A stretch of 23,279 nt of DNA from a virus: positions 1-23,279 of IMG/VR virus record IMGVR_UViG_3300041964_000011, one strand, 5' to 3'. Below, piece after piece: positions 422-19,952 of this stretch. Below the pieces are notes generated by a model. That model was given only the letters and a program-made list of their open reading frames with translations, was not told the origin of the DNA and did not search any database. Numbering within the stretch: position 1 is the first letter of the stretch; the number at the start of each line of letters is the position of its first letter. Made by a program: the position numbers and the translations under genes.

Positions 422-502
422 GGCTCTATGGTGGAATTGGTATACACACTGCTCTCAAAAGGCAGCGCCATTGGCATCTCAGTTCGAATCTGAGTAGAGC
501 TA
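422..502 (+). tRNA. tRNA-Leu(CAA)
   Basis: Acceptor GGCTCTA/TAGAGCT (first pair G-U), anticodon loop CTCAAAA giving CAA, a long class-II variable arm, T arm CTCAG-TTCGAAT-CTGAG, discriminator A. No CCA is encoded; CTT follows. It reads UUG, a codon used heavily in the phage genes here. Confidence 0.92.
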
Positions 503-534
503 CTTGCACACACTACGTAGAAAGGAGCAGGCCA

Positions 535-609
535 ATGGAAGACAAGAGATGTCCTTACTTGGGCGACTGTTGCGAGGACTGCTGCGTGTGTGGTGACGAC
601 GATGGCTAA
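535..609 (+). CDS. 24-residue cysteine-rich acidic micropeptide
   Basis: This tiny frame starts at an ATG preceded by AAAGGAG (520-526), a good ribosome-binding site at 8 nt. It encodes 24 residues of which six are cysteines, in the pattern C-x6-CC-xx-CC-x-C, ending in an acidic GDDDG tail. The stop overlaps the start of the next gene (ATG at 602 inside ATGGCTAA), the usual form of translational coupling. Paired cysteines suggest metal binding or a compact disulfide or zinc knuckle. No family is recognised. The ribosome-binding site, the coupling and the unusual composition argue that it is translated, but its length leaves this uncertain. Confidence 0.5.
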   Translation: MEDKRCPYLGDCCEDCCVCGDDDG

Positions 610-792
610 GCGTAATGCCAGAGGCACCAAAGGCCGCACGAACAGCGGTAAGGTGAAGAAAGGCTTTCGCGGCAAGATGCGAGGCAACAACAACGCCAAG
701 AAGCCAGCAAGCAAGTTGAAGCAGCCCAGGCGCAGCAAGACTTCCAACAGGAAGCCGGGCGTCCAAAGGGCAGCAAGAGCAAGAAGAGGTAA
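602..792 (+). CDS. small basic AT-hook-type DNA-binding protein (one frame change)
   Basis: From ATG 602 the product is very rich in Lys, Arg, Gly and Asn (it begins MAKRNARGTKGRTNSGK). Read without change, the frame runs into the next gene. One missing base in the GGG run near 756-758 would instead make the product end in RKPGRPKGSKSKKR and stop at TAA 790-792. G-R-P-K-G inside a basic stretch is the AT-hook core, which binds the minor groove of AT-rich DNA. I therefore read this as a protein of about 63 residues whose frame is broken in the given sequence. It is coupled to the upstream micropeptide by an 8-nt overlap. Possible roles are nucleoid or transcription control of host or phage DNA. 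If the sequence is exactly right, the product would be a 602-1045 fusion with the next gene. Confidence 0.55.
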
Positions 793-814
793 TCCTACAA
801 TGGAGGAATTCAAA

Positions 815-1045
815 ATGTCTCACAAGAAGAACAAGGAATGCCCTCTCATAAGCCTTGATTTGGATGACTTGAACTTGGATATACTCGGCTTGAACGTACA
901 CATCCCGTGCCTTGAGGTTCAAGTTACTGGTGATGAAGATGGTGGTTTGCTGGGCAGCTTGCTTTGCGGCTTGCTTGGTCCTAATTCTCCGGCCCTACTT
1001 CGTGCTATGGCTGACGAGGCGGAGCGCAGAGGAAGCAGCGAGTAG
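815..1045 (+). CDS. small acidic/hydrophobic protein with LGL...GGLLG-LLC motif
   Basis: A 76-residue protein starting MSHKKNKECP. The start is chosen because GGAGG at 802-806 lies eight bases before this ATG; an in-frame ATG at 800 overlaps that site. After a basic head comes an alternating hydrophobic stretch (LDLDDLNLDILGLNVHIP), then VTGDEDGGLLGSLLCGLLG and a charged tail. From memory, the pairing of a LGLxV strand with a later G-x-LLG-x-LLC motif resembles a family of small secreted or envelope-associated proteins of unknown function in bacteria and archaea, but here there is no signal peptide. It lies directly after the AT-hook gene and before another small gene. Function unknown. Confidence 0.6.
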   Translation: MSHKKNKECPLISLDLDDLNLDILGLNVHIPCLEVQVTGDEDGGLLGSLLCGLLGPNSPALLRAMADEAERRGSSE

Positions 1046-1052
1046 ATAATAC

Positions 1053-1196
1053 ATGGATAACTTGGAAGAGTTGTTCACGGTAGAGATGATTAAGTTGAAG
1101 CAAGCGGAGGGTGAGAAGCTCACTGAGCGGGAAGAGATTATACTTGCGTATAGTCCCTACGCTCACGGAGGCTCTTGCCATGCATGCGCACATTAG
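1053..1196 (+). CDS. 47-residue protein ending in a C-x2-C/His tail, abutting tRNA-Thr
   Basis: The product begins MDNLEELFTVEMIKLKQAEG, a charged amphipathic helix, and ends in GGSCHACAH, a CHxC-plus-His arrangement that could bind a metal. The start follows the recurrent junction GATAATAC-ATG seen before several genes in this window; no strong Shine-Dalgarno sequence is visible. The stop TAG (1194-1196) is immediately followed by the first base of tRNA-Thr at 1197, so RNase P processing of that tRNA would create the mRNA 3' end exactly at the stop codon. Family unknown. Confidence 0.6.
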   Translation: MDNLEELFTVEMIKLKQAEGEKLTEREEIILAYSPYAHGGSCHACAH

Positions 1197-1267
1197 GTTC
1201 CTTAGCTAAGTGGTAAAGCACTGGTTTTGTAATCCAGCATTCAACAGTTCGATTCTGTTAGGAACCT
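1197..1267 (+). tRNA. tRNA-Thr(TGT)
   Basis: Acceptor GGTTCCT/AGGAACC, anticodon loop TTTGTAA, T arm AACAG-TTCGATT-CTGTT, discriminator T; CT follows instead of CCA. Position 1 is adjacent to the TAG stop of the preceding gene. Confidence 0.92.
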
Positions 1268-1271
1268 CTCA

Positions 1272-1308
1272 TGGGGGATTAACTCCCGGCTAGTTACCGT
1301 GGCCCCCA
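1272..1308 (+). other. stem-loop spacer between two tRNA-Thr genes
   Basis: TGGGGG (1272-1277) pairs with CCCCCA (1303-1308), enclosing a second hairpin TAACT/AGTTA (1280-1284/1292-1296). There is no T run, so it is not a normal terminator. It may be a small stable RNA or a processing spacer. Confidence 0.4.
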
Positions 1309-1311
1309 CCG

Positions 1312-1383
1312 GCATCCTTAACTTAGAAGGTAGAGTAACTGCTTCGTACGCAGAAGGCATCGGTTCGACTCCGGTAGGATGCT
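1312..1383 (+). tRNA. tRNA-Thr(CGT)
   Basis: Acceptor GCATCCT/AGGATGC, anticodon loop TTCGTAC, T arm ATCGG-TTCGACT-CCGGT, discriminator T, followed by CT. With the TGT and GGT genes it completes a set of three threonine tRNAs. Confidence 0.9.
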
Positions 1384-1384
1384 C

Positions 1385-1408
1385 TTGGACGTAATGCGCT
1401 GCGTCCGA
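1385..1408 (+). other. short hairpin between tRNAs
   Basis: TTGGACG (1385-1391) pairs with CGTCCGA (1402-1408) around a 10-nt loop. It ends four bases before the next tRNA. Role unknown. Confidence 0.35.
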
Positions 1409-1412
1409 GCCT

Positions 1413-1486
1413 GAACGCTTAGCCCAACGGCAGAGGCGGGAGACTTAAAAACTCCACAAGTCTGAGTTCGAATCTCAGAGCGTTCA
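1413..1486 (+). tRNA. tRNA with Leu(TAA) anticodon but short variable loop
   Basis: Acceptor GAACGCT/AGCGTTC, D arm GCC/GGC, anticodon stem GGAGA/ACTCC (A-A mismatch next to the loop), loop CTTAAAA giving TAA, T arm CTGAG-TTCGAAT-CTCAG, discriminator A as in tRNA-Leu. The variable region is only six bases (ACAAGT), whereas bacterial leucine tRNAs have a long class-II arm. It is clearly tRNA-shaped, but the charging identity is uncertain. Confidence 0.7.
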
Positions 1487-1489
1487 CTA

Positions 1490-1529
1490 GATATACATGG
1501 GAGACGCTCCCAAGGAGCCTATGTATATC
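1490..1529 (+). other. structured 40-nt spacer RNA with exposed AAGGAG
   Basis: A perfect 9-bp outer stem GATATACAT/ATGTATATC (1490-1498/1521-1529) encloses a 5-bp hairpin GGGAG-ACG-CTCCC (1499-1511) and an unpaired AAGGAGCCT (1512-1520). It lies 3 nt after one tRNA and 4 nt before the next. A short frame beginning at ATG 1497 crosses it but continues through tRNA-Ala, so I do not call a gene. Confidence 0.45.
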
Positions 1530-1533
1530 GCAT

Positions 1534-1605
1534 GGGGATATAGTGCTAATGGGAACACGCTGCGCTTGCACCGCAGTATTCAGGGTTCGAATCCCTGTAT
1601 CTCCA
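1534..1605 (+). tRNA. tRNA-Ala(TGC)
   Basis: Acceptor GGGGATA/TATCTCC carries the G3-U70 wobble pair that identifies tRNA-Ala. Anticodon stem CTGCG/CGCAG, loop CTTGCAC giving TGC, T arm CAGGG-TTCGAAT-CCCTG, discriminator A, then CTT. Confidence 0.94.
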
Positions 1606-1715
1606 CTTCGCGTCGGCTGATGGTACCGCCCACAGTCAACGTAGGACCGTCGTGTGACTTGAGTATCTGCATAGGCTACGTCCGTGTGGATGTGATATGA
1701 GCATAGTCGGTCAAT

Positions 1716-1789
1716 GCATTCTTAGCTCTAGCGGATAGAGCGCTTCCTTGGTATGGAAGAGGTCATCGGTTCGAATCCGATAGAATGCT
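1716..1789 (+). tRNA. tRNA-Thr(GGT)
   Basis: Acceptor GCATTCT/AGAATGC, anticodon stem CTTCC/GGAAG, loop TTGGTAT giving GGT, T arm ATCGG-TTCGAAT-CCGAT, discriminator T. An ATG follows after only CG. Confidence 0.94.
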
Positions 1790-1791
1790 CG

Positions 1792-1850
1792 ATGCAGCAA
1801 ATACTGGCGATAGCCGCAGCCCCGTGAGCAGGACCGACGAAGCGGAGTAA
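1792..1850 (+). CDS. possible short peptide gene starting 2 nt after tRNA-Thr (frame uncertain)
   Basis: ATG 1792 begins MQQILAIAAAP and stops at TGA 1825. If the CCCC run at 1820-1823 lacks one C, it would read on as ...APVSRTDEAE to TAA 1848-1850, about 19 residues. The reason to list it is position: like four other frames here, it starts 2-3 nt behind a tRNA 3' end. There is no Shine-Dalgarno sequence. It may be chance. Confidence 0.25.
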
Positions 1851-1882
1851 GGCGAGTCGAGTCACTGCTGTCGGTATATCGT

Positions 1883-1952
1883 GGGTCGTTGTTCTGGTAG
1901 AACTAACGAGGCTTTTAATCTCAGAAGGCGGGTTCGACTCCTGCACGACTCA
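1883..1952 (+). tRNA. tRNA-Lys(TTT)
   Basis: Acceptor GGGTCGT/ACGACTC with a G2-U71 wobble shared with the second lysine tRNA, loop CTTTTAA giving TTT, T arm GCGGG-TTCGACT-CCTGC, discriminator A. The gene at 1955 starts after CT. Confidence 0.92.
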
Positions 1953-1954
1953 CT

Positions 1955-2158
1955 ATGGAATTGACGAGACGACAGTTGATTGAACTGAAGAAAGACGAGG
2001 CCGTTGCCAACGTCCAGGTTATCGTGAATACGAAGCCTAAGAATCTTCCGCTCATGACTGCCGTAGTTGATTTCCAACAGTTCCCCGGATTCACTCTCAC
2101 GTATTTCTTCGACATCGAGAGTGAGAGGTGGAAGTTGTTACATCCTTCGTTTCTGTAG
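1955..2158 (+). CDS. 67-residue protein between tRNA-Lys and tRNA-Arg, unknown
   Basis: The frame starts MELTRRQLIELKKDEAVANV two bases after the tRNA-Lys discriminator and ends at TAG 2156-2158, which is also bases 8-10 of tRNA-Arg(CCT). The product is a soluble mixed alpha/beta-looking protein (a helical N-terminus, then VQVIVNTK and FTLTYFFDIES strands). No domain is recognised. No Shine-Dalgarno site can exist outside the tRNA, so translation probably uses a leaderless message released by tRNA 3' processing, or reinitiation. Cutting tRNA-Arg out by RNase P would remove most of the stop codon and the last residues (GTTTCTGTAG lies inside the tRNA), so the tRNA and a full mRNA are alternative products of the same transcript. 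Confidence 0.7.
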   Translation: MELTRRQLIELKKDEAVANVQVIVNTKPKNLPLMTAVVDFQQFPGFTLTYFFDIESERWKLLHPSFL

Positions 2159-2221
2159 CTCAGGGGACAGAGCATCGGTTTCCTAAACCGTGTGTCGCAG
2201 GTTCGATTCCTGCCAGAAACG
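2149..2221 (+). tRNA. tRNA-Arg(CCT)
   Basis: Acceptor GTTTCTG/CAGAAAC, loop TTCCTAA giving CCT, T arm GCAGG-TTCGATT-CCTGC, discriminator G, then CTT. It reads AGG, a very frequent arginine codon here. It overlaps the end of the preceding gene by 10 nt. Confidence 0.92.
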
Positions 2222-2222
2222 C

Positions 2223-2251
2223 TTGACAAATGACCTGGAGTGTGGTAGAGT
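2223..2251 (+). promoter_or_regulatory. sigma-70-type promoter driving a leaderless HNH gene
   Basis: A consensus -35 box TTGACA (2223-2228), exactly 17 bp, then TAGAGT (2246-2251, four of six matches to TATAAT). A start point 6-7 bp downstream falls at 2257-2258, the ATG of the HNH gene, so the mRNA would have no 5' leader. It begins 2 bp after tRNA-Arg(CCT). Confidence 0.7.
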
Positions 2252-2257
2252 ATTACC

Positions 2258-2692
2258 ATGCCTATAAAAGATAAAGCCAGATACAGGGAATATATGAAAC
2301 AAGCTATGAAGAGTAGAGCAAGGCGGCGTAAGGAAGAGCTTGTTGAGTATAAAGGCGGTAAATGTGAATTGTGCGGTTACGATAAGTGTATCGCAGCCCT
2401 TCAGTTTCATCACATAGACCCGGCTACGAAAAAGTTTAGGTTGAGTACATATAATGGAACTTGGGAAGTATTGAAGGAAGAAGCCGATAAATGCGTATTA
2501 CTGTGTGCTAATTGTCATGCCGAACATCATTGGGTACATAGCTCAGCGGAAGAGCAGCAGACTCTTAACCTGCCGGTCTCAGGTTCGAATCCTGATGTAC
2601 TCACAAAACATGCATCTGTAGCTCAATGGAATAGAGCGATAGCCTACGAAGCTATGCGTTGCAGGTTCGAGTCCTGCCAGATGTACTTATGA
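2258..2692 (+). CDS. HNH endonuclease with zinc ribbon; reading frame runs on through two tRNA genes
   Basis: The N-terminus is basic and helical (residues 1-35). Then come the first zinc knuckle CELC (about 37-40), FHHIDP with the catalytic His pair (about 51-56), and LLCANCHAEHH with the second CxxC, the Asn and the final His of the HNH fold (about 82-92). Such proteins are small homing-type or free-standing nucleases common in phages. The recognised domain ends at about residue 92. The rest of the frame (93-144) is simply a translation of tRNA-Lys(CTT) and tRNA-Arg(ACG) and ends at 2692. One more G in the GGG run at 2532-2534 would give HHWGT and stop at TAG 2539-2541, bases 8-10 of tRNA-Lys, matching the other tRNA-junction genes. 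There is no Shine-Dalgarno sequence; the promoter position implies leaderless translation. It probably carries its own promoter because it is a mobile insert in the tRNA array. Confidence 0.85.
   Translation: MPIKDKARYREYMKQAMKSRARRRKEELVEYKGGKCELCGYDKCIAALQFHHIDPATKKFRLSTYNGTWEVLKEEADKCVLLCANCHAEHHWVHSSAEEQQTLNLPVSGSNPDVLTKHASVAQWNRAIAYEAMRCRFESCQMYL
2532..2603 (+). tRNA. tRNA-Lys(CTT)
   Basis: Acceptor GGGTACA/TGTACTC with G2-U71, loop CTCTTAA giving CTT, T arm TCAGG-TTCGAAT-CCTGA, discriminator A, then CAA. It lies inside the open frame of the HNH gene. Confidence 0.92.
2612..2685 (+). tRNA. tRNA-Arg(ACG)
   Basis: Acceptor GCATCTG/CAGATGT (first pair G-U), anticodon stem ATAGC/GCTAT, loop CTACGAA giving ACG, T arm GCAGG-TTCGAGT-CCTGC, discriminator A, then CTT and the ATG of the next gene. 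Confidence 0.93.
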
Positions 2693-2928
2693 CTTTCAAC
2701 GACAACATAAAATGGTTCGTAGATGGCTACCACACAGGCTTGTCTGGTAGGTGGCCCGACTTGGTATTTTACGTACTTGAACCTAGTTATCGGAAAGGCT
2801 ACAGGCGTGGTCGGGAGAGTACAAGCAATCAAAAGACATGCTTCCTTAGCTCAGCGGAACAGAGCAGATGGTTTCTACCCATCAGGTCGGGAGTTCGAAT
2901 CTCTCAGGAAGTGCTTATGCAGATGTAA
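2689..2928 (+). CDS. small protein between tRNA-Arg genes, unknown; frame runs through a tRNA
   Basis: The frame starts MTFNDNIKWFVDGYHTGLSG three bases after tRNA-Arg(ACG). The first about 50 residues look like a real protein with a basic patch (GYRRGRES). After that the frame translates tRNA-Arg(TCT), which begins at 2840, and stops at 2928. One extra A in the AAAA run (2831-2834) would instead end it as NQKDMLP at TAG 2847-2849, bases 8-10 of that tRNA, the same arrangement as the genes ending at 2158 and (reconstructed) 2541. That is the likelier natural end, giving about 53 residues. No domain is recognised and no Shine-Dalgarno sequence is present. Confidence 0.5.
   Translation: MTFNDNIKWFVDGYHTGLSGRWPDLVFYVLEPSYRKGYRRGRESTSNQKTCFLSSAEQSRWFLPIRSGVRISQEVLMQM
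2840..2913 (+). tRNA. tRNA-Arg(TCT)
   Basis: Acceptor GCTTCCT/AGGAAGT (first pair G-U), anticodon stem GATGG/CCATC, loop TTTCTAC giving TCT, T arm GGGAG-TTCGAAT-CTCTC, discriminator G, then CTT. Confidence 0.92.
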
Positions 2929-2990
2929 TTCAGTGGTAGAATGCCAGCTTGCCAAGTTGGTCGCCGTGGGTTCGAATCCCATCATCTGCT
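2919..2990 (+). tRNA. tRNA-Gly(GCC)
   Basis: Acceptor GCAGATG/CATCTGC, anticodon stem CCAGC/GTTGG, loop TTGCCAA giving GCC, T arm GTGGG-TTCGAAT-CCCAT, discriminator T. The next gene's ATG follows after CT. Confidence 0.94.
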
Positions 2991-2992
2991 CT

Positions 2993-3184
2993 ATGTATAG
3001 AATAGAACAAACAGAGAATTCGGTGATAACGCCGAGCAACCCTAAACAGGATATGCACAGTGGTCACGGAGACGAGAGTGGGTTCGATATACCGAACTAC
3101 CATAACGAGACTCCCGACGACAGCGGTTTCTGGGCTACGTTCTTTATAATTCTGTTTGTGATGCTTATAATCGCATGCGGGTGA
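2993..3184 (+). CDS. 63-residue C-terminally anchored membrane protein
   Basis: The frame starts MYRIEQTENS two bases after tRNA-Gly(GCC). It has a polar, acidic, His-rich N-terminal 45 residues without positive clusters, then one hydrophobic segment (FWATFFIILFVMLIIACG, about 46-63) reaching the C-terminus. This is the layout of a tail-anchored single-pass membrane protein. Tiny phage membrane proteins of this kind can act in lysis or superinfection exclusion, but nothing here identifies the role. The stop TGA (3182-3184) lies inside tRNA-Gly(TCC), which starts at 3177. There is no Shine-Dalgarno sequence. Confidence 0.7.
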   Translation: MYRIEQTENSVITPSNPKQDMHSGHGDESGFDIPNYHNETPDDSGFWATFFIILFVMLIIACG

Positions 3185-3248
3185 GATGTTACTGGCAGCA
3201 TGCCAGCCTTCCAAGCTGGACGAATCGGTTCGAGTCCGATTACCCGTA
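3177..3248 (+). tRNA. tRNA-Gly(TCC)
   Basis: Acceptor GCGGGTG/TACCCGT (first pair G-U), anticodon stem CCAGC/GCTGG, loop CTTCCAA giving TCC, T arm ATCGG-TTCGAGT-CCGAT, discriminator A, then CT and ATG. It overlaps the previous gene's last 8 nt. Confidence 0.92.
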
Positions 3249-3250
3249 CT

Positions 3251-4150
3251 ATGAAAACTAATCTACTAGGAGTCAGCGTGAGATTTTTGCTAGCGACCAT
3301 CTTCTCGATGCTTCTTGTCTTGCTTGGGACGCAGGTTGCGCAGGCGCAAACAGCATCCTATAAGGATGGGACGTTCTATGACCAGCCGAGGCAGAAGGGC
3401 ATTCAGTTCTTTGCGGGGAATCAGGGTATGGGAACGTATGACCCTATCGTATTTCCGGGTCAGGATAACGTGGGACACTTGCATGAGTTCTACTGCGGTA
3501 ACGTGATACCGGGAACTCTCACGTCTCAGCTATTCAATGACCGTACTCTTTGCGGCAAGGAAGACCACCACTCGGGCTACTGGCATCCTGCTCTGATTAA
3601 TAAGGTTACGGGAGAGCCGCAGAGGTCAATGAGTTTGTTCGTCTACTACAGGCGCAACGTAGAAATCACACCTTACAGCAGGCTACGCCCAGTCCCCCCT
3701 GGCTTGAAGGTTATAGCCGGTAGCTCCTCTTCTACAGGAGGACAGTACGGTGTAGTAGATTGGGGTTGTGGTGGCGCTAACGGTTCTGGCGCTGCGGGGA
3801 ATACTCGCGGATATGCACTTCCGCAGAAGTGCGACCCTAACAGCAAGCACCCTGCGGTGAAGTCGGTAATTACATTCCCGAACTGCATCCAGAAGTTGCC
3901 TAGTGGTGAGCTTGTGCTAGACTCGCCTGACCACAAGAGTCACATGCGCTACGCTTCGGAGAAGACGGGCTTGTGTCCAGACGGATTCAAGTACCAGATT
4001 CCGATTCCTGTCATGAGTGTGAAGTGGCCCATCTCGAACCCAACGAACTACGAGCTAGCTAGTCATGGGCTTGGTTCGATGCACGGCGACTTGTGGGCGG
4101 CACATCGCACGGCTAGCTTTAGAGTCGCTATGCAGGAAGACTTGCAGTAG
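3251..4150 (+). CDS. secreted DUF1996-family protein
   Basis: About 300 residues with a Sec signal peptide (hydrophobic FLLATIFSMLLVLLG, cleavage after AQA at about residue 33). The mature protein matches the DUF1996 layout as I know it: DPIVFPG, then GHLHEFYCGN, a Cys followed by HHSGYWHPAL, VVDWGCGG, ITFPNC, DHKSHMRYA, GLCPDGF, and near the end SMHGDLW. Many conserved His, Cys and Trp residues suggest an extracellular metal-dependent or carbohydrate-active protein; the family function is unknown to me. Two starts are possible: ATG 3251, 2 nt after tRNA-Gly, or GTG 3278, preceded by AGGAG (3268-3272), which gives a cleaner signal peptide (MRFLLATIF). DUF1996 is best known from fungi and actinobacteria, so capture from a host or another soil microbe is plausible. 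Confidence 0.85.
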   Translation: MKTNLLGVSVRFLLATIFSMLLVLLGTQVAQAQTASYKDGTFYDQPRQKGIQFFAGNQGMGTYDPIVFPGQDNVGHLHEFYCGNVIPGTLTSQLFNDRTLCGKEDHHSGYWHPALINKVTGEPQRSMSLFVYYRRNVEITPYSRLRPVPPGLKVIAGSSSSTGGQYGVVDWGCGGANGSGAAGNTRGYALPQKCDPNSKHPAVKSVITFPNCIQKLPSGELVLDSPDHKSHMRYASEKTGLCPDGFKYQIPIPVMSVKWPISNPTNYELASHGLGSMHGDLWAAHRTASFRVAMQEDLQ

Positions 4151-4155
4151 GCCGC

Positions 4156-4377
4156 ATGAGAGTTGTACTTCTAAGAGACATAAGCATTCCGGCTGGCCCT
4201 TCTTACAGGAAGGGTCAGTTGGTGTTTACGGTCTGGACGGAAGACAATAGGATTATACTTGGGGGCAAGGACGGTATCCCGATTGACTTCGGCATTGATT
4301 ACTTGCCGTATTGGGACACGCACTACCTGAGAGACAGGATGCGCATCAAGGCTCCCACAGTTAAAGAGAAGAGATAA
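4156..4377 (+). CDS. 73-residue protein of unknown function
   Basis: It starts MRVVLLRDISIPAGPSYRKG five bases after the DUF1996 stop, so translation may be coupled; there is no strong ribosome-binding site. The sequence looks like a small beta-barrel-type fold (VVLLRDISI, GQLVFTVWTE, NRIILGG) with a basic C-terminus (PTVKEKR). The PAGPSYRKGQ stretch followed by strands recalls SH3-like small phage proteins, but the match is too weak to name. It ends six bases before the atypical tRNA at 4383, again through a TAATAC junction. Confidence 0.65.
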   Translation: MRVVLLRDISIPAGPSYRKGQLVFTVWTEDNRIILGGKDGIPIDFGIDYLPYWDTHYLRDRMRIKAPTVKEKR

Positions 4378-4382
4378 TACAC

Positions 4383-4459
4383 GCGGGCATATCCCCTCAC
4401 TCTGATAAGGTGTAGAAAGGGTAGCCGGTCACACGAAGGTTCGAATCCTTCTGCCCGTA
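4383..4459 (+). tRNA. atypical tRNA-like RNA, Ile(GAT)-type anticodon loop, no normal D arm
   Basis: Normal acceptor GCGGGCA/TGCCCGT (first pair G-U), normal T arm GAAGG-TTCGAAT-CCTTC, discriminator A followed by CTT. The only anticodon-like hairpin is CACT-CTGATAA-GGTG (from 4398); its loop is the classic tRNA-Ile(GAT) loop. It sits only about 8 nt after the acceptor strand, with no D arm, and about 20 nt separate it from the T arm. Total length (77 nt) is ordinary. It could be a permuted or degenerate tRNA, or a structural tRNA-like element marking the 5' end of the RNase P RNA that follows at 4461. Confidence 0.55.
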
Positions 4460-4460
4460 C

Positions 4461-4822
4461 TTGATATACTTGGCTTTCCCATCGCGGCACACTGGCTCCA
4501 CGCTACTGTGTCGAGGAAGGTCGGGGCACATAGTAGAGGCCGCTCACCCTAATAAGGTGGGGATGCATTCCGTGAGGGGTGTAGACGACAAGTGCAACAG
4601 AGAGAAGAGGGGGTTCGGTCCCCTTGAAAGCTGCCGCCGAAACCCAAAGGCAGGGTTGCTGGTAATACAGTGACGCAGGCAAACTTCCGGTGTGTGCAAC
4701 TCAAATAGATTTACGTGTGAGCAGGACACCCTAACGGGAGAACCGCTATCCACGTATTTCAGGTAGAGGCTTAGATGGATGATGGGTTAATACAGAACCC
4801 CGCCTATACCCAAGTATATCAA
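4461..4822 (+). ncRNA. rnpB: RNase P RNA (bacterial type), phage-encoded
   Basis: This is the catalytic RNA that cuts the 5' leader from pre-tRNAs. P1 is a perfect 13-bp helix, TTGATATACTTGG (4461-4473) with its complement at 4810-4822. P2 is CCCATC/GATGGG (4478-4483/4781-4786) and P3 is 7 bp (4485-4491/4507-4513). The universal core follows: GAGGAAGGTCGGGGC (from 4513), whose GG-T-CGGGG pairs with CCCCGCC (4798-4804) to form P4 with the conserved bulged U at 4521. Then come the AGTGCAACAGAGAGAAGAG block (4591 on), an L15-like loop with GGTAA (4661-4665) that would pair with the tRNA 3' end, and ATACAGAACCCCGCCTATA near the 3' end. The 362-nt length fits bacterial RNase P RNA. No protein subunit gene is in the window, so the host protein would be used. 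Its 5' end touches one tRNA and its 3' end lies 3 nt before tRNA-Gln. Confidence 0.92.
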
Positions 4823-4825
4823 CAT

Positions 4826-4900
4826 TGCGCTGTTACTATGCTGGCAGTGGTGGCTAGGCTTTGAACCTAGTTGTCGTAGGTTCGATTCCTACCGGCGCAA
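4826..4900 (+). tRNA. tRNA-Gln(TTG)
   Basis: Acceptor TGCGCTG/CGGCGCA with the U1-A72 pair typical of tRNA-Gln, anticodon stem CTAGG/CCTAG, loop CTTTGAA giving TTG, T arm GTAGG-TTCGATT-CCTAC, discriminator A, then CAA. RNase P cleavage of its 5' end would also trim the RNase P RNA. Confidence 0.94.
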
Positions 4901-4915
4901 CAACTTCGGCATCTT

Positions 4916-4950
4916 ACCCCTGCACTCGTTATTGAGTGTGGGGGTTTTTT
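4916..4950 (+). terminator. intrinsic terminator ending the tRNA/RNase P operon
   Basis: A 12-bp stem, ACCCCTGCACTC (4916-4927) with GAGTGTGGGGGT (4934-4945), 6-nt loop GTTATT, and a T run directly after the stem (4945-4950, then ATTTCTATTTTTT). It lies 15 nt after tRNA-Gln. Confidence 0.93.
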
Positions 4951-11347: not shown

Positions 11348-11824
11348 ATGGCGAGACGAGCAACGCTAGGTATGGCAATGTCAACGGGCTATGCGCTCGA
11401 CTGTGCAGATGACAACTACTACGCAAGCGGATGGGAACGAGACACCGCTAGATTCTTGAAATACCTAACGAACAAAGGTGTTCTGACGGGATGGGAGTAT
11501 GAGCCGGAGACTTTCCTCTTCACGGGGAACGGATACAAACGCGGGCCGTGGGCGTACAAGCCCGATTTTGCCGTGCGTTTCAGCCTCGATGCCCCTAAAG
11601 CCTATCTCAAGTTGCTTCAAGACATGGGATTCGAACATGCGCAGCCTGGGCTGCTTGTCTTCTGGGAAGTCAAAGGACAGGAGACCGGGAGCGACAGAAG
11701 CAAGTGGCGTAGATTTCGCAGCCACGTAGGGTATCCGCTAGAGATTGTGGCAAGAGAAAAGATGCTCATGATACAGACAGGCTTCAAGCCTTTGATTCCA
11801 GAATGGGAGAGTCACATAAGGTGA
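11348..11824 (+). CDS. PD-(D/E)XK nuclease-like protein beside the terminase
   Basis: 158 residues. An N-terminal helix SGWERDTARFLKYLTNKGV (about 27-46) precedes strands WEYEPETFLF and WAYKPDFAVRF, where P-D supplies the first acidic residue (about 76). FWEVKGQETG (about 105-114) supplies the E-x-K pair, followed by a helix and VGYPLEIVAREKM. This order is the PD-(D/E)XK fold seen in DUF1064-type and resolvase-like phage nucleases. These often lie in packaging modules and may resolve branched DNA before packaging. Its stop (TGA 11822-11824) overlaps GTG 11821 of the next gene. The frame is intact. Confidence 0.7.
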   Translation: MARRATLGMAMSTGYALDCADDNYYASGWERDTARFLKYLTNKGVLTGWEYEPETFLFTGNGYKRGPWAYKPDFAVRFSLDAPKAYLKLLQDMGFEHAQPGLLVFWEVKGQETGSDRSKWRRFRSHVGYPLEIVAREKMLMIQTGFKPLIPEWESHIR

Positions 11825-12354
11825 CTGACATAGAACGTCGCAAGAATAACCGGATAGACCAGATTACTCCGGAAGAGAGGGCGACACTGGCCCACCAGCT
11901 TGCTATCGAGTATGCTGAGGGAACTACATATGCGCAGATGGGTAGAACGCACAGCATAACCACTGCCGCCGTGAAGACATTGCTCCAAGAGCATGCCGCG
12001 TATATCCGAAATGCACGTCCTGATACCAGGAGCTTGCAAGAGGAAGAATACATGCGGATGTACGGGGAGATGAAGCGTATCGACCCTACAGACAACAGCA
12101 TATCCGCTCTGATACGTGCGAAAGCTATTGAAGCTAGGATACAGCTATTGACCCGTCGGGACAAGTTGCTTGGACACGAATTGCAGGGGGACATGGACGG
12201 AGCCGTGAATACGGTGGCCGAGATGGTTCGCGCAATGAACCAGAGGGGGGACTTCGACGGAGTATCCGCGATGGACCTAGGGAAGCTGCACCAAGACGAA
12301 GAGGATGTAGTCGAGGCGGAAGTGATTGAGGATGATACCGACAGACCAGAATAA
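11803..12354 (+). CDS. terS: terminase small subunit
   Basis: About 177-183 residues. Residues about 25-70 form a helix-turn-helix region (ERATLAHQLAIEYAEGTTYA, then HSITTAAVKTLLQEH), the DNA-recognition part of small terminases. A central helical region (residues about 85-130, RAKAIEARIQLLTRRDKLLG) would mediate ring assembly. The very acidic C-terminus (EEDVVEAEVIEDDTDRPE) would contact the large subunit. ATG 11803 and GTG 11821 are both possible; GTG overlaps the upstream stop as GTGA and has GGGAGAG about 10 nt before it, so I favour GTG although the longer frame is listed. It overlaps the large-subunit gene by about 23 nt, the usual order. Confidence 0.85.
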   Translation: MGESHKVTDIERRKNNRIDQITPEERATLAHQLAIEYAEGTTYAQMGRTHSITTAAVKTLLQEHAAYIRNARPDTRSLQEEEYMRMYGEMKRIDPTDNSISALIRAKAIEARIQLLTRRDKLLGHELQGDMDGAVNTVAEMVRAMNQRGDFDGVSAMDLGKLHQDEEDVVEAEVIEDDTDRPE

Positions 12355-13945
12355 GGTATCGTCCACAGACCAGAAGAAGCTCATGCGCCTATGGATGGCG
12401 CGTCCGGAAGTGTTCTTCAAAAATGTGTTGGGCTGGGAGCCGTGGGAGAAGCAGGTTGAAATACTCCACAGCATCCGAGACAACAGGGAGACGATGGTAC
12501 AGTCTTGCAACGCTGCTGGCAAGAGTTGGCTGGCTGCTGGCATCGTGATATGGTGGATGATTACGAGGTTCAACGGCAAGGTTATAACCACTGCTCCTAC
12601 ATGGCGTCAGGTACAGGACGTACTCTGGGCGAAGATAGGCAGTCAGGCGGCTAAGGCTCCGGTCTTGGGATTGAAGCCGATGCAGACTGCGATGAACATG
12701 GACAAGGACTGGTTTGCTAGAGGGTTGAGTACGAGACAGCCCGAGAAGTTCGCCGGTTACCACGGAAACGTCTTGATGGTGGTTGACGAGGCCAGCGGTG
12801 TCGTAGGTGAGGGGCTATGGGCTGCTATGGACGGTAACTTGACCGACTTCAAGAATGACCGGATGCTAGCAATTCGGAAACCCTACTGACCCGACGGGAG
12901 AGTTCTACCGCCGATGCACTAGGCCGATGAAGGGTATCCGGAATACGATAAAGATTTCTGGCGTACGACACGCCGAACGTCAAGTACCAGAAGCAGGTTG
13001 TACCCAACCTAATCTCATACGAGATGGTTAAGCAGAAGGAAGTGGACTGGGGATGGAACAGCCCGCTCTTCCAGGTGAGAATACTTGGGGAGTTTCCGAG
13101 GACAGGTGGAGAGAGCCTCTTCCCTCTTGCTTGGTTGGACAGGGCATTCAACTACGATACGTCTGCTGCGTTCGACCCGGTTGCTGGGGACACGTTCTTC
13201 CAGATGCCAGACCTCTCTGCCGAGCAAGGTGGGGTCAAGGTGATTGGGTTCGACGTTGCTGCCGGTGGTGAGGACAAGAATGCTCTATGTTTCCGCACTG
13301 GCTTGAAGGTGCAGAACATCGTATCTTGGTACGCGCAAGACACCACGGAACTGCTTGAGGCGCAGGACATGTATGGGAAATACTTGAGGAAAGGCGATGG
13401 GGAAGCGCAGCCCTTCTCTATACGGATGGGTTGACAGGTACGCACCCGATGTTGTCTACATCGACGCACTGGGACCGGGTAAGCCGATATACGATGAGGC
13501 CAGGAAGCACAAGCTGAGGAACAGCGAGAGGTACGGCCCTTTGAGGATTCGTGCGTTCAAGGCTTCCAACAGCCCACTGAGAGAAGAGATGTTTGCCAAC
13601 GCCAAGGCGGAGGCTTACTGGAACGTGAGAGAGTTGCTTCGTCTCAACCAGCTTGACCTAAGCATGGTTCAAGGGGACGTTAGGGACGAGATAGAGAAGC
13701 AGGCTTTTGCTATACGTTGGAAGCAGAATGCCAAAGGCGCTATCCAGATAGAAGACAAGAGGACAATGAAGGCCAGAGAAGGGTTCTCACCGGACGAGTT
13801 GGAAGCATTGATAATGTCTTTCTACGGTGCGAAGAACCCCAAGGTTAATCCATACGCTACTCGCAAGTTGATGTACGAGCCGCCCTCTCCGGAGGACCGA
13901 GGACACGACATGGTGAGAAGCTTTGACTATCCAATTGGGAGATAA
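12332..13945 (+). CDS. terL: terminase large subunit (three frame changes)
   Basis: The packaging motor: ATPase plus nuclease that cuts concatemers and drives DNA into the prohead. The N-terminal ATPase has WEPWEKQVEIL (adenine-binding region), the Walker A variant SCNAAGKSW (about residue 60), the ITTAPTWRQVQDVLW coupling segment and Walker B VLMVVDEASG. The nuclease half has VIGFDVAAGGEDKNA with its first Asp, DVVYIDALGPG with the second, and FSPDELEAL with the third. The frame changes near 12878, 12960 and 13415-13432; between them the natural sequence resumes (GNPTDPTGEFYRR, then AYDTPNVKYQKQVVPN, then RYAPDVVYIDALG). About 535 residues, normal for the family. ATG 12332 lies in the end of terS. 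Confidence 0.92.
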
Positions 13946-13948
13946 TAG

Positions 13949-15406
13949 ATGCCGACAGACTTGAAACCACCTACTAATGCGAGGAAGTACGAAGTCGGTA
14001 CTGCCCTTGATTTTAATAGGCAGTACAGGGACCAAGCATCGTACGGTGAAATACTTGCGCTAGAGGACCGTCCAAGTGCAATGGACATTTGGAACATGAT
14101 AGGGAATGACGCGCAGGCACACCAGTTGTTTCACTGCCCTGAAGCTCCCTCTGAAGAGTGTCGAGTTTGAAATACTTGCCACTGAGGGGGATAAGGGAGA
14201 GAGGGACTTCGTTGAGTGGGCTATGAATGCTACGGCGCGGCAGGGGGGCATGACTACCCCAATGCGCACGGTAGTTGCCCAGATGGGTAACGCAATAGCA
14301 TTCAGGTATGCACCATTCGAGAAGGTCTGGCGTGTGGTTGAGGATGGGCAATACAAGGCTATCACACACTGCACAAGCTTGCGTATCGACCACCTTCGAC
14401 CGTGACTATACGAGGCGACGAGAACGGCAGCTTCAACGGATTCATACAGAGGGCATACAAGGGTAACAGATACAAGACGGTGCCGGTTACTCCGCAGCGC
14501 TCTCTTGTGTATATCCACAACTTCGACGTTGCTGGCTTGACCGGAATGACAGGCTTCGACGCGGTGTACAAGAACTACTTAAACAAGTTGAAGGTATCGT
14601 TCTTCTACTACGCATTCTTGAGAATGTGGCATTCCCGAGAACACTAGTGAAGGTGGCAGGAGATGACCCCGAAGAACTACAGGGCTTGCTCGACAAGGCG
14701 AGGATGCTTGCATCGCAGGGCATCATTGGACTATACGATACCGAACAGATTGAGACCTATGAATCTCAGAGGACGACAAGCGACTACCAGAATGCCTTGA
14801 GTATCTTGACTGGCAGATGGCGAAGGCTGTGCTTGGACAGTTTCTCGACTTGGGAACCAGTGGAGAGCGAGGCAGCTATGCGCTATCCAAGGACAAGAGC
14901 AGCTTCTTCTACAATGCATTGGAAGCTGTACTACTTGACATTTCTGATGCGATTAACAACTATGTCATTGCTGACCTCGCACAGTACAACTTCGGGCAAG
15001 ATGCGGCGTTCCCGCGTATTAGATTCAAGCCTCTCAATGACGAGACAGCGGATGCGGTCTTGGAAACGTATAGACAGATAATCATGGCGAACACCCCGAA
15101 CATAACGCCAACGTTCATGCTGCAACTAATGAAGCGCGTTGAGGAAATACTTGGGTTGGAGCTTGACCCGCTCAGTGAGTACAGCAATGAGGAATACTTG
15201 GAAGTACTCAAGACTATTCCTACTGCGCGTGAACACTTGCTGTCCAAGGAGAGCAGGGCTGGTGCTGGTCAGAATGCTACTACGGGTGTTGACAAGAATG
15301 CAACAACGAAGGTGGCGGCGGTACTGTTACCGAAGCCAGGGATGGAAAGCGCACGGAAACCAAGTCCGAGCAGGGTAGCGCTTGTCAGACGAGGCCGACA
15401 TCGTAA
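13949..15406 (+). CDS. portal protein, DUF935/Mu gp29-like (about five frame changes)
   Basis: The portal is the dodecameric channel at the capsid vertex through which DNA enters and leaves. Natural sequence can be followed through the frames: YGEILALEDRPS, LKLPLKSVEFEILA, DFVEWAMNATARQGGM, AIAFRYAPFEKVWRVVEDGQ, then SFFYYAFLENVAFPRTLVKV after a change near 14620, LDWQMAKAVLGQFLDLGTSG, FPRIRFKPLND and a C-terminal tail GGGGTVTEARDGKRTETKS ending at TAA 15404-15406. Frame changes lie near 14132, 14365, 14618, 14810 and 15315. The total is about 485 residues, right for DUF935-type portals. ATG 13949 has GGGAG about 9 nt upstream. It follows terL by three bases. The breaks are probably consensus errors because all core segments survive. 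Confidence 0.85.
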
Positions 15407-15467
15407 GCCAGATGCGAGGCCCGAAGGCACCGACCAAGCCGAAGAGGGCAAGGAGGTTCGGCAGATA

Positions 15468-15869
15468 ATGGAGACATTCGAACTAACACTAGCACCAAAC
15501 AGCGACCTGCTCTTGGAGCTAGCTAGGCGAAAGAAGTCAAACTTTGACGGAATACCTAGCAAGCACCCCGAGAGAAAAGGCCAGCTAAACAAGAGCAAGT
15601 TGAAGAATTGGGTCGAGAAGAATGGTGGCTTGCCCACGTATATCAACTCAATCGCAACGGCTCTTCTCAGGGAACATCCGGGATGGGGTATAGGCAGGGT
15701 GATTGCAACAGCGGTAAACATGGTTAAGAAGATGTGTGCTGGCGGTGGGACAGGCATCGTAAAGAAGGTGTCTACTGCTGTCAAGAAGGCGGCTTGCGCT
15801 GCTGTCGCATCTTGGAACAAGAAGAAGGCTACGCGTCGGAAGAAATTGACGCGCACACGCTTGAAATGA
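15468..15869 (+). CDS. head-module protein, basic, unknown (possible N-terminal part of the protease gene)
   Basis: ATG 15468 has AAGGAGG (15450-15456) about 11 nt upstream. The product starts METFELTLAPNSDLLLELAR and contains KLKNWVEKNGGLPTYINSIA, a helical GWGIGRVIATAVNMVKKMC segment and a Lys/Ala-rich C-terminus (AACAAVASWNKKKATRRKK). Similar NWVEKxGGLPxYI segments occur, as I recall, in actinobacterial phage proteins next to or fused with the prohead protease. The end is uncertain: a neighbouring frame continues EEIDAHTLEMTEREVGEMP up to the protease, so this may be one gene with it. An 18-residue basic frame (15412-15468) lies just upstream and is not called. Confidence 0.6.
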   Translation: METFELTLAPNSDLLLELARRKKSNFDGIPSKHPERKGQLNKSKLKNWVEKNGGLPTYINSIATALLREHPGWGIGRVIATAVNMVKKMCAGGGTGIVKKVSTAVKKAACAAVASWNKKKATRRKKLTRTRLK

Positions 15870-15930
15870 CTGAGAGGGAAGTGGGCGAGATGCCCCAACC
15901 CCAATCAGAATACGTGCTGATATACGTGAG

Positions 15931-17178
15931 ATGGGGGAGAGCATTCCGTCTAACCTATTAGCAACCGATGATGAGGCGTTCGCCTTCATGGGAATAGAAC
16001 TAACAGACGAAGAACGTGAGGGGGTGAACAACTTGGATATGGAAGAATACCTAGGACTGGCTGAGGGCGCTGCAAAGGAAGCGGCTGTTTCCTGGTTCCC
16101 CGTGCTTGATATGGCGGCTGCTGAGAAGGTATCAGACAACCTGTACGAGAAAGAGATTATACGTGCGGGTGTCATAAAGGATGCCAAGACCGGCAAGGAA
16201 ATCAAGTTCGACGCTAGTTTCATGAAAGAGTTTAAGGAAAACTTCGAGGCCGTTCTTGCAAGCGAAGGATACGTGCCGGTGCAGGACGTGACCGACGACA
16301 ACAAGCACACTGATGCTACGCAGTATCAGGTGGGCATCGTCAATAAGATGCGTCTTGACGACGAGCAGAACCCAACGAAGGTCATCGCTCAGATTAAGCT
16401 GAACGAAGACATGCGCAAGGTGGTGGACTTCAACCCTAAGATTGGCGTAAGCATAGGGGCGTCGTACTCACACCTGAGCGAAGATGGCAGGCCCACCAAC
16501 GTATTTCCAAGGCATGTTGCTATTACGCACAGGCCGAAGTTGAAGGGCATGGATTCTTGGAAGAATCTAATCAAGATGTCCGATGCTGGTGAAGCACTCA
16601 CGCTTGACCTGACGGACGCGGATTACGTAGAAGAGACGGAAGTAAACGACGAAAGGAAGGTGACAGAAATGGCAGAAGAGGCAAAGAACACAATCAACCT
16701 TACAGAGTTGATGCAGGACGAGGCGTTCAAGAGTGCTTTCAACGACGCGGTTTCTACTCAGGTAGCGAACTTGACGGAAGAGAAGGACAAGGAAATCGAG
16801 CGTCTACAGAAGTCAGTGGGCGAGGTACAGCGCAGCAGCTACGAGCAGGCAGTTAATCTGGCTGTTGAGAGCTACGCGCAGGCTGGCGTTCCGAAGCCGA
16901 TTAGGGATACCGCAAAGGCACTCCTACTAAGCTTCGAGGCTGGCGAAGAGGCCAAGACCCTCAACCTAACCGAAGGCGAAGGCGACGACAAGAAGCAGGT
17001 CGAGCTTAGCCGTTGGGAGACCGTAACACGTCTACTTGATGAGGTCAAGGGCGTGGTTGACATGACCGAAGAGCAGGGCAGCGGCGAAGAGGACGAGAGC
17101 AACGGCGCTCTTACGGGCGATGCTCGTAAGGCAGCGGTTGAAGGTCTCGTAGGACTTGCCCGCGCAAACCGTAAGTAA
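15931..17178 (+). CDS. prohead protease-scaffold fusion, Mu I-like
   Basis: About 415 residues. The first half (to about 225) looks like a Mu gpI-type prohead protease: YQVGIVNKMRLDDEQNPTKV, then AQIKLNEDMRKVVDFNPKIG, VSIGASYSHL (candidate catalytic Ser and His) and FPRHVAITHRPKLKGMDSW. The second half is scaffold-like: NTINLTELMQDEAF, a long charged coiled coil (LTEEKDKEIERLQKSVGEVQ), and an acidic C-terminus. The protease would mature the capsid and remove the scaffold. The start is uncertain: the frame stays open upstream as PIRIRADIRE to the CCCCAACCCC run at 15893-15902, where ATG 15890 could be the true start if the C count is wrong. It ends 30 nt before the decoration gene. Confidence 0.8.
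   Translation: MGESIPSNLLATDDEAFAFMGIELTDEEREGVNNLDMEEYLGLAEGAAKEAAVSWFPVLDMAAAEKVSDNLYEKEIIRAGVIKDAKTGKEIKFDASFMKEFKENFEAVLASEGYVPVQDVTDDNKHTDATQYQVGIVNKMRLDDEQNPTKVIAQIKLNEDMRKVVDFNPKIGVSIGASYSHLSEDGRPTNVFPRHVAITHRPKLKGMDSWKNLIKMSDAGEALTLDLTDADYVEETEVNDERKVTEMAEEAKNTINLTELMQDEAFKSAFNDAVSTQVANLTEEKDKEIERLQKSVGEVQRSSYEQAVNLAVESYAQAGVPKPIRDTAKALLLSFEAGEEAKTLNLTEGEGDDKKQVELSRWETVTRLLDEVKGVVDMTEEQGSGEEDESNGALTGDARKAAVEGLVGLARANRK
16669..17178 (+). CDS. nested in-frame scaffold protein
   Basis: Inside the protease-scaffold gene, AAAGGAAGG (16652-16660) lies 8 nt before ATG 16669, giving MAEEAKNTINLTELMQDEAF and the complete scaffold half (169 residues). Separate translation of the scaffold from an internal start is known for lambda (C/Nu3) and Mu (I/Z). 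It gives an excess of scaffold over protease. The strong site placed exactly between the two domains is the evidence. The product is highly acidic and helical, as scaffolds are. Confidence 0.65.
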   Translation: MAEEAKNTINLTELMQDEAFKSAFNDAVSTQVANLTEEKDKEIERLQKSVGEVQRSSYEQAVNLAVESYAQAGVPKPIRDTAKALLLSFEAGEEAKTLNLTEGEGDDKKQVELSRWETVTRLLDEVKGVVDMTEEQGSGEEDESNGALTGDARKAAVEGLVGLARANRK

Positions 17179-17208
17179 TTCTAACCACAAGAAAGGAGTG
17201 TGAGAGAT

Positions 17209-17667
17209 ATGGCATTGTTGAAGTCACGTTTTGAGTTCGGTGACTACCTTCCAGTGAGGTGCCCAACGGGTGCTACATTGGTTGGTGGACGCCTAGTGCG
17301 TATCAACGCGGCCCTAGGCGGCTACGATGGTCTGCACGGAAAGCCAACAGTTGAGCATACGTTCGCACGTACGCACATCCCGTATGGCGTAAACGAGTAC
17401 GATGTACTTGGCGGAGAAGAGGGTTCCGTAAACAGGAACCACACGATTCTACTATTGGAAGCTAACGGAGCTATTGCTGCGGGCGACCTTGTTGTTCCAT
17501 CTGTAGCGGCTAACGCTGCTGCGGCTGACGCGGGTAGGGTTGTAACGATGGGTGCTGGTGCTGTCAACGAGGTAATCATTGGACAGGCACTACACGCAGT
17601 CGGAAGCGCAGGCGAAAAGGTGTGGGTAGCGATTCCGTTCGGATTCCTACGTCACAGCGGAACCTAA
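17209..17667 (+). CDS. capsid decoration/accessory protein, DUF2190-like
   Basis: 152 residues starting MALLKSRFEFGDYLPVRCPT. AAAGGAG (17192-17198) lies 10 nt before ATG 17209. The sequence is beta-rich, with GGRLVRINA, a central HTILLLEANGAIAAGDLVVPS and DAGRVVTMGAGAVNEVIIGQALHAVGSAGEKVWVAI. The G-x-ALHAVGSAGEKVWVAI end matches the DUF2190 pattern of small capsid proteins (compare GxAlxaaaaGExvxVxl). Its place between scaffold and major capsid protein is where decoration or stabilisation proteins such as lambda gpD are encoded. The frame is intact. Confidence 0.7.
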   Translation: MALLKSRFEFGDYLPVRCPTGATLVGGRLVRINAALGGYDGLHGKPTVEHTFARTHIPYGVNEYDVLGGEEGSVNRNHTILLLEANGAIAAGDLVVPSVAANAAAADAGRVVTMGAGAVNEVIIGQALHAVGSAGEKVWVAIPFGFLRHSGT

Positions 17668-17698
17668 ACTACTAACTAATTGAAAGGGGGTGTAGCAC

Positions 17699-18635
17699 AT
17701 GGCTACAGGAGCAGCAGAAGGACATTTCAGTAATCAGCATGCGAATGCGCCTACAGTTAAGCAGTACTTGAAGGAGCCTACTCTTATCAGGGATGCTATT
17801 AACGACTTGTCTGCCGACCAGTTCATCACTGAGTCACTATTCACTCAGGGCTACAACGCTCAGGGTGGAGCGGTCAAGTACATGCAGGATGCGGTTAAGA
17901 AGTACGTCGAAGAGGGTTACGACCCAGGCGAAGACTTCAGCATCGCAGAAGGCACCGAGTTCCATCAGGTCTACCAGACGGAACCGGCAGAGGTTGTTGA
18001 GCGTGTGAAGAAGTACGCAATCGAGGGTTGGATTACGTACGAGGACGAAGACCGTAACCAGCTTGGCTCACTTGCGCGTCTAACGACACGTATGATGAAC
18101 ACGATGGTTAAGTACTTCGACAGCACGGCACTCAACATGCTGGCTACGCACACGGGCGTACAGACGATGAACAGGACGGCAAGGTGGGACACCACCACGA
18201 CGACCACCATCGTTGACGACATCATGCTTGCTGCGGATATGCTTGCAGACGAGGCACTGACTGGTGGCGAGACTTACAACGCAAACACCTTGGTTATAAG
18301 CCGCAAGACCTACTCAGGCGCTGCGTCGTAACAAGGAAATCCAGAACATGTTTGACAGCGACGACGGACCAACCAACAGCGACCTTCGCTTCGGCGGGCA
18401 GCTAACAAGCTTGGCGGGTATCCCGATTCTCATGTCACCGTTCATGCGTGACAACATGGCATTCTTGATGGAGCGTGGAACCATCGGCGGCATCGCTGAC
18501 GAGATTCCATTGACCCTTCTACCTATCGAGCGCGTTGCACGATTCGAGAGAATCTACGTACGTGCAAAGAGGTTGACGGTTGCGTTCCTAACGGACCCGA
18601 AGGCTATGGTTCGTATCCAGAACATCAACGTTTAA
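17699..18635 (+). CDS. major capsid protein (one frame change)
   Basis: AAAGGGGGTG lies before ATG 17699. The product is about 311 residues, HK97-type by context and pattern: an N-terminal helical arm (KQYLKEPTLIRDAINDLSAD), VVERVKKYAIEGWITYEDED (E-loop and spine-helix area), IVDDIMLAADMLADEAL, NTLVISRKTYSALRRNKEIQ, then GQLTSLAGIPILMSPFMRDN, LMERGTIGGIADEIPL and a final AKRLTVAFLTDPKAMVRIQN. The frame breaks at the GG near 18318-18319 (one base too many); the protein then resumes LRRNKEIQNMFDS. The order (scaffold, decoration, this gene, connectors) and length support the assignment. The break is most likely a sequence error, since a phage cannot do without this gene. Confidence 0.9.
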
Positions 18636-19470: not shown

Positions 19471-19952
19471 TGGCTACCATGCGCATGACTATACGTGTGC
19501 ATTCCGAGTTCGGAGACATGGCAGATGACCTGCTTAGAATGCAGAAGGAAACCAACTTCTCGCAGACGGTGTTGAATGGCATAAACGCCATACAGAAGTT
19601 CCAGAGACAGTATGCTCCGATTGGCAAGACGGGTAAGGGACCGCACGGGAACATACCCAGAAGCATAAAGCCAGCCAGGGTTCACACCAGACCTGATGGA
19701 AGTGCGTGGGCTGAGAGCAAGACAGACTACGGCCCTGCTATATTTACAAGTGAGGGTACTGGACAGTTCGGACCTCGCAAGAGACCGTACTTCATTGCTC
19801 GACACAGCAGCAGCTACAACTCTAGGGGCTACTGGCATCCGGGACAGAGAGGCACCAACTGGTGGGATAGGGGAGCCAACTTTGGTTCCGTTATTGCCCT
19901 CTCCGGCTTTCAGCGCAAGGTAGAGAGAATACTTGGAATGAGGACTAGATAA
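19470..19952 (+). CDS. neck/tail-completion protein, HK97 gp10-like by position
   Basis: 160 residues starting at GTG 19470 (VATMRMTIRVHSEF) within the previous stop, or ATG 19479. It has an N-terminal strand, a helix ADDLLRMQKETNFSQTVLNG, then AIQKFQRQYAPIGKTGKGPH, WAESKTDYGPAIFTSEGTGQ and a basic aromatic C-terminus (KRPYFIARHSSSY, GTNWWDRGANFGS). The YAPIGKTG...YA/YG...F-x-E-x-GTG...RPY/F pattern is that of gp10/gpZ-type neck proteins (compare APvdTGxLrxS and YAxyvExGT). They join the connector to the tail tube. The gene order, adaptor before and tail terminator after, agrees. Confidence 0.7.
   Translation: MATMRMTIRVHSEFGDMADDLLRMQKETNFSQTVLNGINAIQKFQRQYAPIGKTGKGPHGNIPRSIKPARVHTRPDGSAWAESKTDYGPAIFTSEGTGQFGPRKRPYFIARHSSSYNSRGYWHPGQRGTNWWDRGANFGSVIALSGFQRKVERILGMRTR

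Follow-up and report, generated by a model that had tools for sequence, protein, structure and literature searches.

RNase P ranks with the most conserved enzymes of the cell, and the gene for its RNA is regarded as a housekeeping gene. Positions 4461-4822 of a 23,279-base virus contig (IMG/VR record IMGVR_UViG_3300041964_000011; this whole stretch of DNA is called the window) raise the question of whether a phage carries the gene for this RNA and, if so, what the RNA would do there. The original prediction of a bacterial-type RNase P RNA was confirmed at the level of the covariance model: the 362 nt of the plus strand correspond to a full-length, class-A-like bacterial RNase P RNA (RF00010). 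In the local 561 bases, the class A model was significant (74.1 bits, E = 1.2e-22; match at 4466-4821, model positions 1-367, that is, all 367), though below the curated cut-off, and the search over the whole record gave E = 1.2e-24. The Rfam gathering cut-off for RF00010 is 100 bits, which is a curation limit and not a biological feature. As 74.1 bits falls short of it, the default Rfam scan of the window misses the RNase P RNA and lists tRNAs only; consequently, a reduced threshold was used on the local region. Genuine reduced RNase P RNAs of CPR bacteria also fall below covariance-model cut-offs and need lowered thresholds (PMC8172020). The free-energy fold of the RNA was only modestly better than that of shuffled sequences (z = -2.3); it is the model match and the covariation that support the gene.

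Standard pairs could be drawn for P1, P2, P3, P4, P5, P7, P8, P9, P12, P13, P14, P15 and P16 (Table 1), while P10/P11 were assigned from the Rfam alignment only. The predicted end points coincide exactly with both ends of P1, whose 13 perfect pairs were found as described, and P2, P3, P4 with its bulged U and the core blocks GAGGAAGGTC, ACAGAGAGA and ACAGAACCCCGCCTA were all present. One label had to be corrected: the "L15-like GGTAA loop" (4659-4668) caps P14, and the true L15 GGU motif lies in the GGTA further downstream. P18 was absent, as is generally known for some bacteria. Bacterial RNase P RNAs that lack P18 are also described in PMC8172020.

Table 1. Features of the RNase P RNA locus and of its surroundings in the window.
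Feature	Position in the window	Strand	Evidence or remarks
tRNA array, 13 further tRNAs	422-3249	+	None with encoded CCA
HNH endonuclease gene	2258-2692	+	Within the tRNA array
tRNA, probably Ile(GAT)	4383-4459	+	RF00005, 31.2 bits; tRNA-Ile(GAT) at the matching site in G066
P1	4461-4473 with 4810-4822	+	Perfect 13 bp
P2	4478-4483 with 4781-4786	+	2 compensatory changes vs. G066
P3 hairpin	4486-4512	+	3 compensatory changes vs. G066
Conserved block GAGGAAGGTCGGGGCA	4513-4528	+	Contains the P4 5' strand (4518-4526) and the bulged U
P4	4518-4526 with 4798-4805	+	8/8 pairs, bulged U present
P7	4540-4542 with 4688-4690	+	Drawn pairs
P8 hairpin	4543-4561	+	Drawn pairs, compared with G066
P9 hairpin	4564-4583	+	Drawn pairs, compared with G066
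Conserved ACAGAGAG block, J11/12	4597-4604	+	RF00010 match
P12, P13, P14	4607-4625, 4631-4653, 4655-4674	+	Together 6 compensatory changes vs. G066
Conserved GCAACTCAAATAGA	4696-4709	+	RF00010 match
P15	4700-4702 with 4766-4768	+	Drawn pairs
L15 GGU motif	4762-4764 (GGTA 4762-4765)	+	Sequence
Conserved ACAGAACCCCGCCTA	4792-4806	+	Contains the P4 3' strand (4798-4805)
tRNA-Gln(TTG)	4826-4901	+	Separated from the RNase P RNA by 3 nt
Candidate intrinsic terminator	4916-4945	+	13-pair stem and T run; consensus match only
Packaging and head genes (TerS-like, terminase large subunit, portal, major head protein)	11348-18635	+	Synteny with G066

A divergent relative of the window, contig G066 (also L094; 95,940 bases, 95.9 kb), carries an RNase P RNA between matching tRNAs. 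The order in G066 (tRNA-Arg, tRNA-Arg, tRNA-Gly, tRNA-Gly, tRNA-Ile(GAT), RNase P RNA, tRNA-Gln(TTG)) matches that of the window and is followed, again as in the window, by a long secreted/tailspike-like protein, a long tail protein, an endonuclease and TerS. Protein identity between both contigs is 54% for the endonucleases and 33% for TerS. The two RNAs were aligned without structure information. All of the 79 drawn pairs could form in both RNAs (158/158 cells paired; thirteen helices fully paired in both), and 17 of these pairs had both sides changed in a compensatory manner. Such double changes averaged 8.4 in shuffled alignments, none of the 500 shuffles reaching 17, and dropped to 0-2 when the partners were slid. 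An independent consensus fold of the same alignment contained 15 doubly changed pairs and recovered P1, P3, P4, P8, P9, P12, P14 and P16. The helices added in class A were formed in both RNAs in the case of P13, P14 and P16, with double changes in P14 and P16. The structure of the RNase P RNA is maintained by covariation despite the strong divergence of the flanking proteins.

The contig is that of a phage, as was predicted, and the gene stands at the end of an array of 15 tRNAs; terminase, portal and head genes are present in the same window, and the syntenic relative shares the arrangement and the covarying structure. ARAGORN found 14 tRNAs on the plus strand of the window and Infernal found the fifteenth (4383-4459), separated from the 5' end of the RNase P RNA by 1 nt. 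This fifteenth tRNA has an abnormal D arm and an oversized variable region and was missed by ARAGORN, while its counterpart in G066 is a normal tRNA-Ile(GAT). Downstream of tRNA-Gln, the strong terminator-like hairpin is a candidate for the end of the array. None of the 15 window tRNAs encodes CCA; in each of them (422-4901), the first C following the discriminator seems to be present in the gene. A gene for a DUF1996-domain protein (3200-4150) lies in the array and overlaps a tRNA-Gly, and a pectate-lyase-like tailspike gene follows the array. The terminase, portal and head genes are split over several frames (12326-13945, 14106-15869 and 17699-18635), which suggests indel errors in the contig.

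Viral contigs were scanned with short core motifs carrying no tRNA sequence, and the matches were checked with RF00010. We set aside the host-like copies L030-L033 and L113 (the latter 94% identical to a Hydrogenophaga sequence) and the L043-L046 cluster, which has no 5' half. The gene recurs in many phage lineages: about 26 distinct clusters of intact viral RNase P RNA were obtained at 80% identity, all from uncultured viral contigs, and in 16 of them a tRNA lies at most 10 nt away, on the same strand every time. P4 had 8/8 pairs and the bulged U in every intact viral copy, except L115 (7/8 pairs, U present); P4 was partly selected for in three of the scans, because their motifs contained one P4 strand, while the ACAGAGACGAG scan contained neither. 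Over 17 distinct viral variants, P4 was 99.3% paired, double-change cells amounted to 32 (10.1 in shuffles) and the U bulge was invariant. A terminase was detected in 14 of the 49 viral records and ribosomal protein uS7 in none of 40. The terminase protein of the window had no relatives among the viral contigs, whereas the RNA motifs did find relatives. Blastn matches to cultured phages were discounted, as they represented host flanks or unverified faecal scaffolds. The prediction that RNase P RNA is rare in phages has to be qualified: none was found in seven tRNA-rich cultured phages (Jay2Jay, Myrna, phage G, T4, XacN1, CcrColossus and KVP40), but uncultured viral contigs hold the distinct intact copies counted above.

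Several viral copies are unusual in form or company. Miniature RNase P RNAs of 160-216 nt keep P4 and the bulged U intact and lack most or all of the specificity domain (L114:1501-1660, which is G061 19528-19687; L047:482-672; L049; L042; L050, in G003 and G004; and L054). The contig of the 160-nt RNA, G061, also has a match to a permuted, alphaproteobacterial-type tmRNA (L089 9894-10226), as well as genes for a ribonucleotide reductase and a tailspike-like protein. Further tmRNA genes lie close to phage RNase P RNAs in L026 (10752-11100), L066, L067, L070 and L073. In L043-L046 (G011, G019, G022 and G027), the 3' half of the RNase P RNA is intact and a tRNA-like stretch replaces the 5' half; this RNA has decayed or is possibly split. 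As this lineage retains the 3' half only, the gene can be lost. In G020, a ribonucleotide reductase frame of 1457 aa (L248:3615-7988) contains an internal HNH endonuclease segment, which is probably an intein.

The origin of these RNAs does not seem to be single. A large viral group shares a Burkholderiales-type core (ACAGAGACGAG...TGAAACGG) that is present in Burkholderiales genomes, and L034 and L036 are similar to the high-GC host RNA L031. The window RNA has neither the Burkholderiales-type core nor a blastn match to sequences of that group, shows no blastn likeness to L034, L036 or L031, and its own motif had no match in the GTDB genome contigs. Several separate captures of RNase P RNA by phages are therefore likely, judging from these sequence comparisons. 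The RNAs have diverged too far to be aligned reliably as nucleotides.

Next, we considered the partners of the RNA. RnpA (PF00825) was found in none of the 49 records (the window and 48 others), using a search that was positive in 10 control genomes; this absence is not firm, since the window is fragmentary (23 kb) and so may be all of the records. A CCA-adding enzyme (phrog_2244, in agreement with PF01743) was present in 12 of 31 records, including G066 and the other records with CCA-less tRNAs (G018, G020 and G013). In other records with an RNase P RNA, almost every tRNA has an encoded CCA (for example 26/27 in L006, 14/14 in L009 and 31/31 in L071). In other bacteria, the L15 GGU is the site that pairs with the tRNA CCA, and cyanobacterial RNase P RNAs, which favour CCA-less substrates, have lost this motif (PMC4264200). 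The phage RNA retains it, L15 reading GGGTA in the G066 relative. Retention of GGU, the existence of CCA-encoding relatives and the CCA-adding enzyme of G066 leave the proposed tuning to CCA-less pre-tRNAs unsupported.

The RNA probably combines with the RNase P protein of the host and acts in maturation of the transcript of the phage tRNA array, its own release included, as far as gene order and structure indicate. It would be transcribed as part of the array transcript, with its predicted 5' end adjoining the 3' end of the upstream tRNA and its 3' end adjoining the 5' end of tRNA-Gln, so that RNase P cleavage of the tRNA-Gln leader would release the RNase P RNA at its 3' end as well. As no phage copy of the protein was found, the RNA would assemble with host RnpA and would provide additional capacity for 5' leader removal from the 15 phage tRNAs, and in related phages the phage CCA-adding enzyme would then finish the tRNA 3' ends. 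The benefit may be more or faster tRNA maturation in infection, gained either as extra capacity for the sudden load of array transcript or as independence from host rnpB. It is possible that the RNA keeps processing going after host RNA decay, as proposed in the original prediction. Host rnpB RNA has been reported to be fairly stable in T4 infection (PMC9697503), and loss of host RNA need not be the reason for the phage gene.

Other explanations were weighed against this one. The phage RNase P might be autonomous and independent of the bacterial protein subunit, either as RNA alone or with a phage protein that was not recognised, which would fit the 0/49 records with rnpA and the established ability of bacterial RNase P RNAs to be catalytic alone at high magnesium. 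However, no candidate phage protein was identified and the host protein is always in the cell, which makes autonomy unlikely. We give less weight still to a decoy, namely an RNA that sequesters the host RNase P protein, so that tRNA maturation in the host slows down, and that does not itself process phage tRNAs. Such an RNA would also have to use the host protein, since phage rnpA was not found, and the miniature forms of other phages (160-216 nt), poor in specificity domain, would suit it; nevertheless, P4, the bulged U, the conserved blocks and the L15 GGU are needless for a protein sink and are kept under covariation, and the location within the phage's own tRNA array argues for service to those tRNAs.

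Covariation also bears on whether the gene is a passenger or relic, that is, an unused copy of host rnpB carried along with tRNA genes, for which the broken copy in L043-L046 offers a precedent. The window and G066 differ by 17 compensatory changes and zero lost pairs despite their strong protein divergence, and the same arrangement recurs across many lineages; consequently, we consider a relic highly improbable. Least credible of all is host DNA or an assembly artefact joining a bacterial rnpB to a phage contig. The record comes from an uncultured virus and host-like rnpB does occur in other viral records (L030-L033, L113), but the same arrangement is found on a second contig, the window also contains terminase, portal and head genes, and the motif of the window RNA had no match in the GTDB genome contigs.

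Maturation of the phage's own tRNAs with the host protein is thus the reading that we prefer, and we lean, with somewhat less assurance, towards a broader one. Many uncultured phages may carry a partial tRNA-maturation kit, in which the tRNA array contains an RNase P RNA that releases itself, frequently accompanied by a CCA-adding enzyme and in some cases by a tmRNA, but not by RNase P protein; repeated captures from hosts would have given rise to RNAs of reduced size, the smallest of about 160 nt and devoid of the specificity domain, which would act as hybrid enzymes with host protein. If this is true, with phages carrying the catalytic subunit in their tRNA arrays without the protein, some viruses control tRNA maturation itself. 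The recurrence in unrelated uncultured phages points to viruses that bring part of the tRNA-making machinery with them, and a phage RNase P RNA could help to explain how large phage tRNA arrays function in infection. The miniature viral forms are natural experiments on the minimal content of the ribozyme.

A full-text literature search, covering mostly papers outside subscription, returned no earlier description of an RNase P RNA encoded by a phage. The nearest case is Mycobacterium austroafricanum, which has extra, divergent RNase P RNAs of possible horizontal origin, separated by an endonuclease gene; unlike the window RNA, they are in a bacterial genome, and the passages on them make no link to phages or tRNA arrays (PMC9569102). 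The tRNA arrays of Streptomyces phage Jay2Jay and Mycobacterium phage Myrna resemble the window in their many tRNA genes and differ in that no RNase P RNA was found in them. Burkholderiales-type RNase P RNA provides the core common to many other viral copies, which the window RNA does not share. With class A RNase P RNA (RF00010, the type of E. coli M1 RNA), the window RNA has in common P1-P5, P7-P9 and P12-P16, the bulged U of P4, the conserved blocks and the L15 GGU; unlike it, the window RNA is phage-encoded within a tRNA array, lacks P18, has a short P12 and scores 74 bits, below the cut-off. The reduced RNase P RNAs of CPR bacteria (PMC8172020) resemble the window RNA in being genuine yet below the cut-off, and differ from it in being cellular housekeeping genes.
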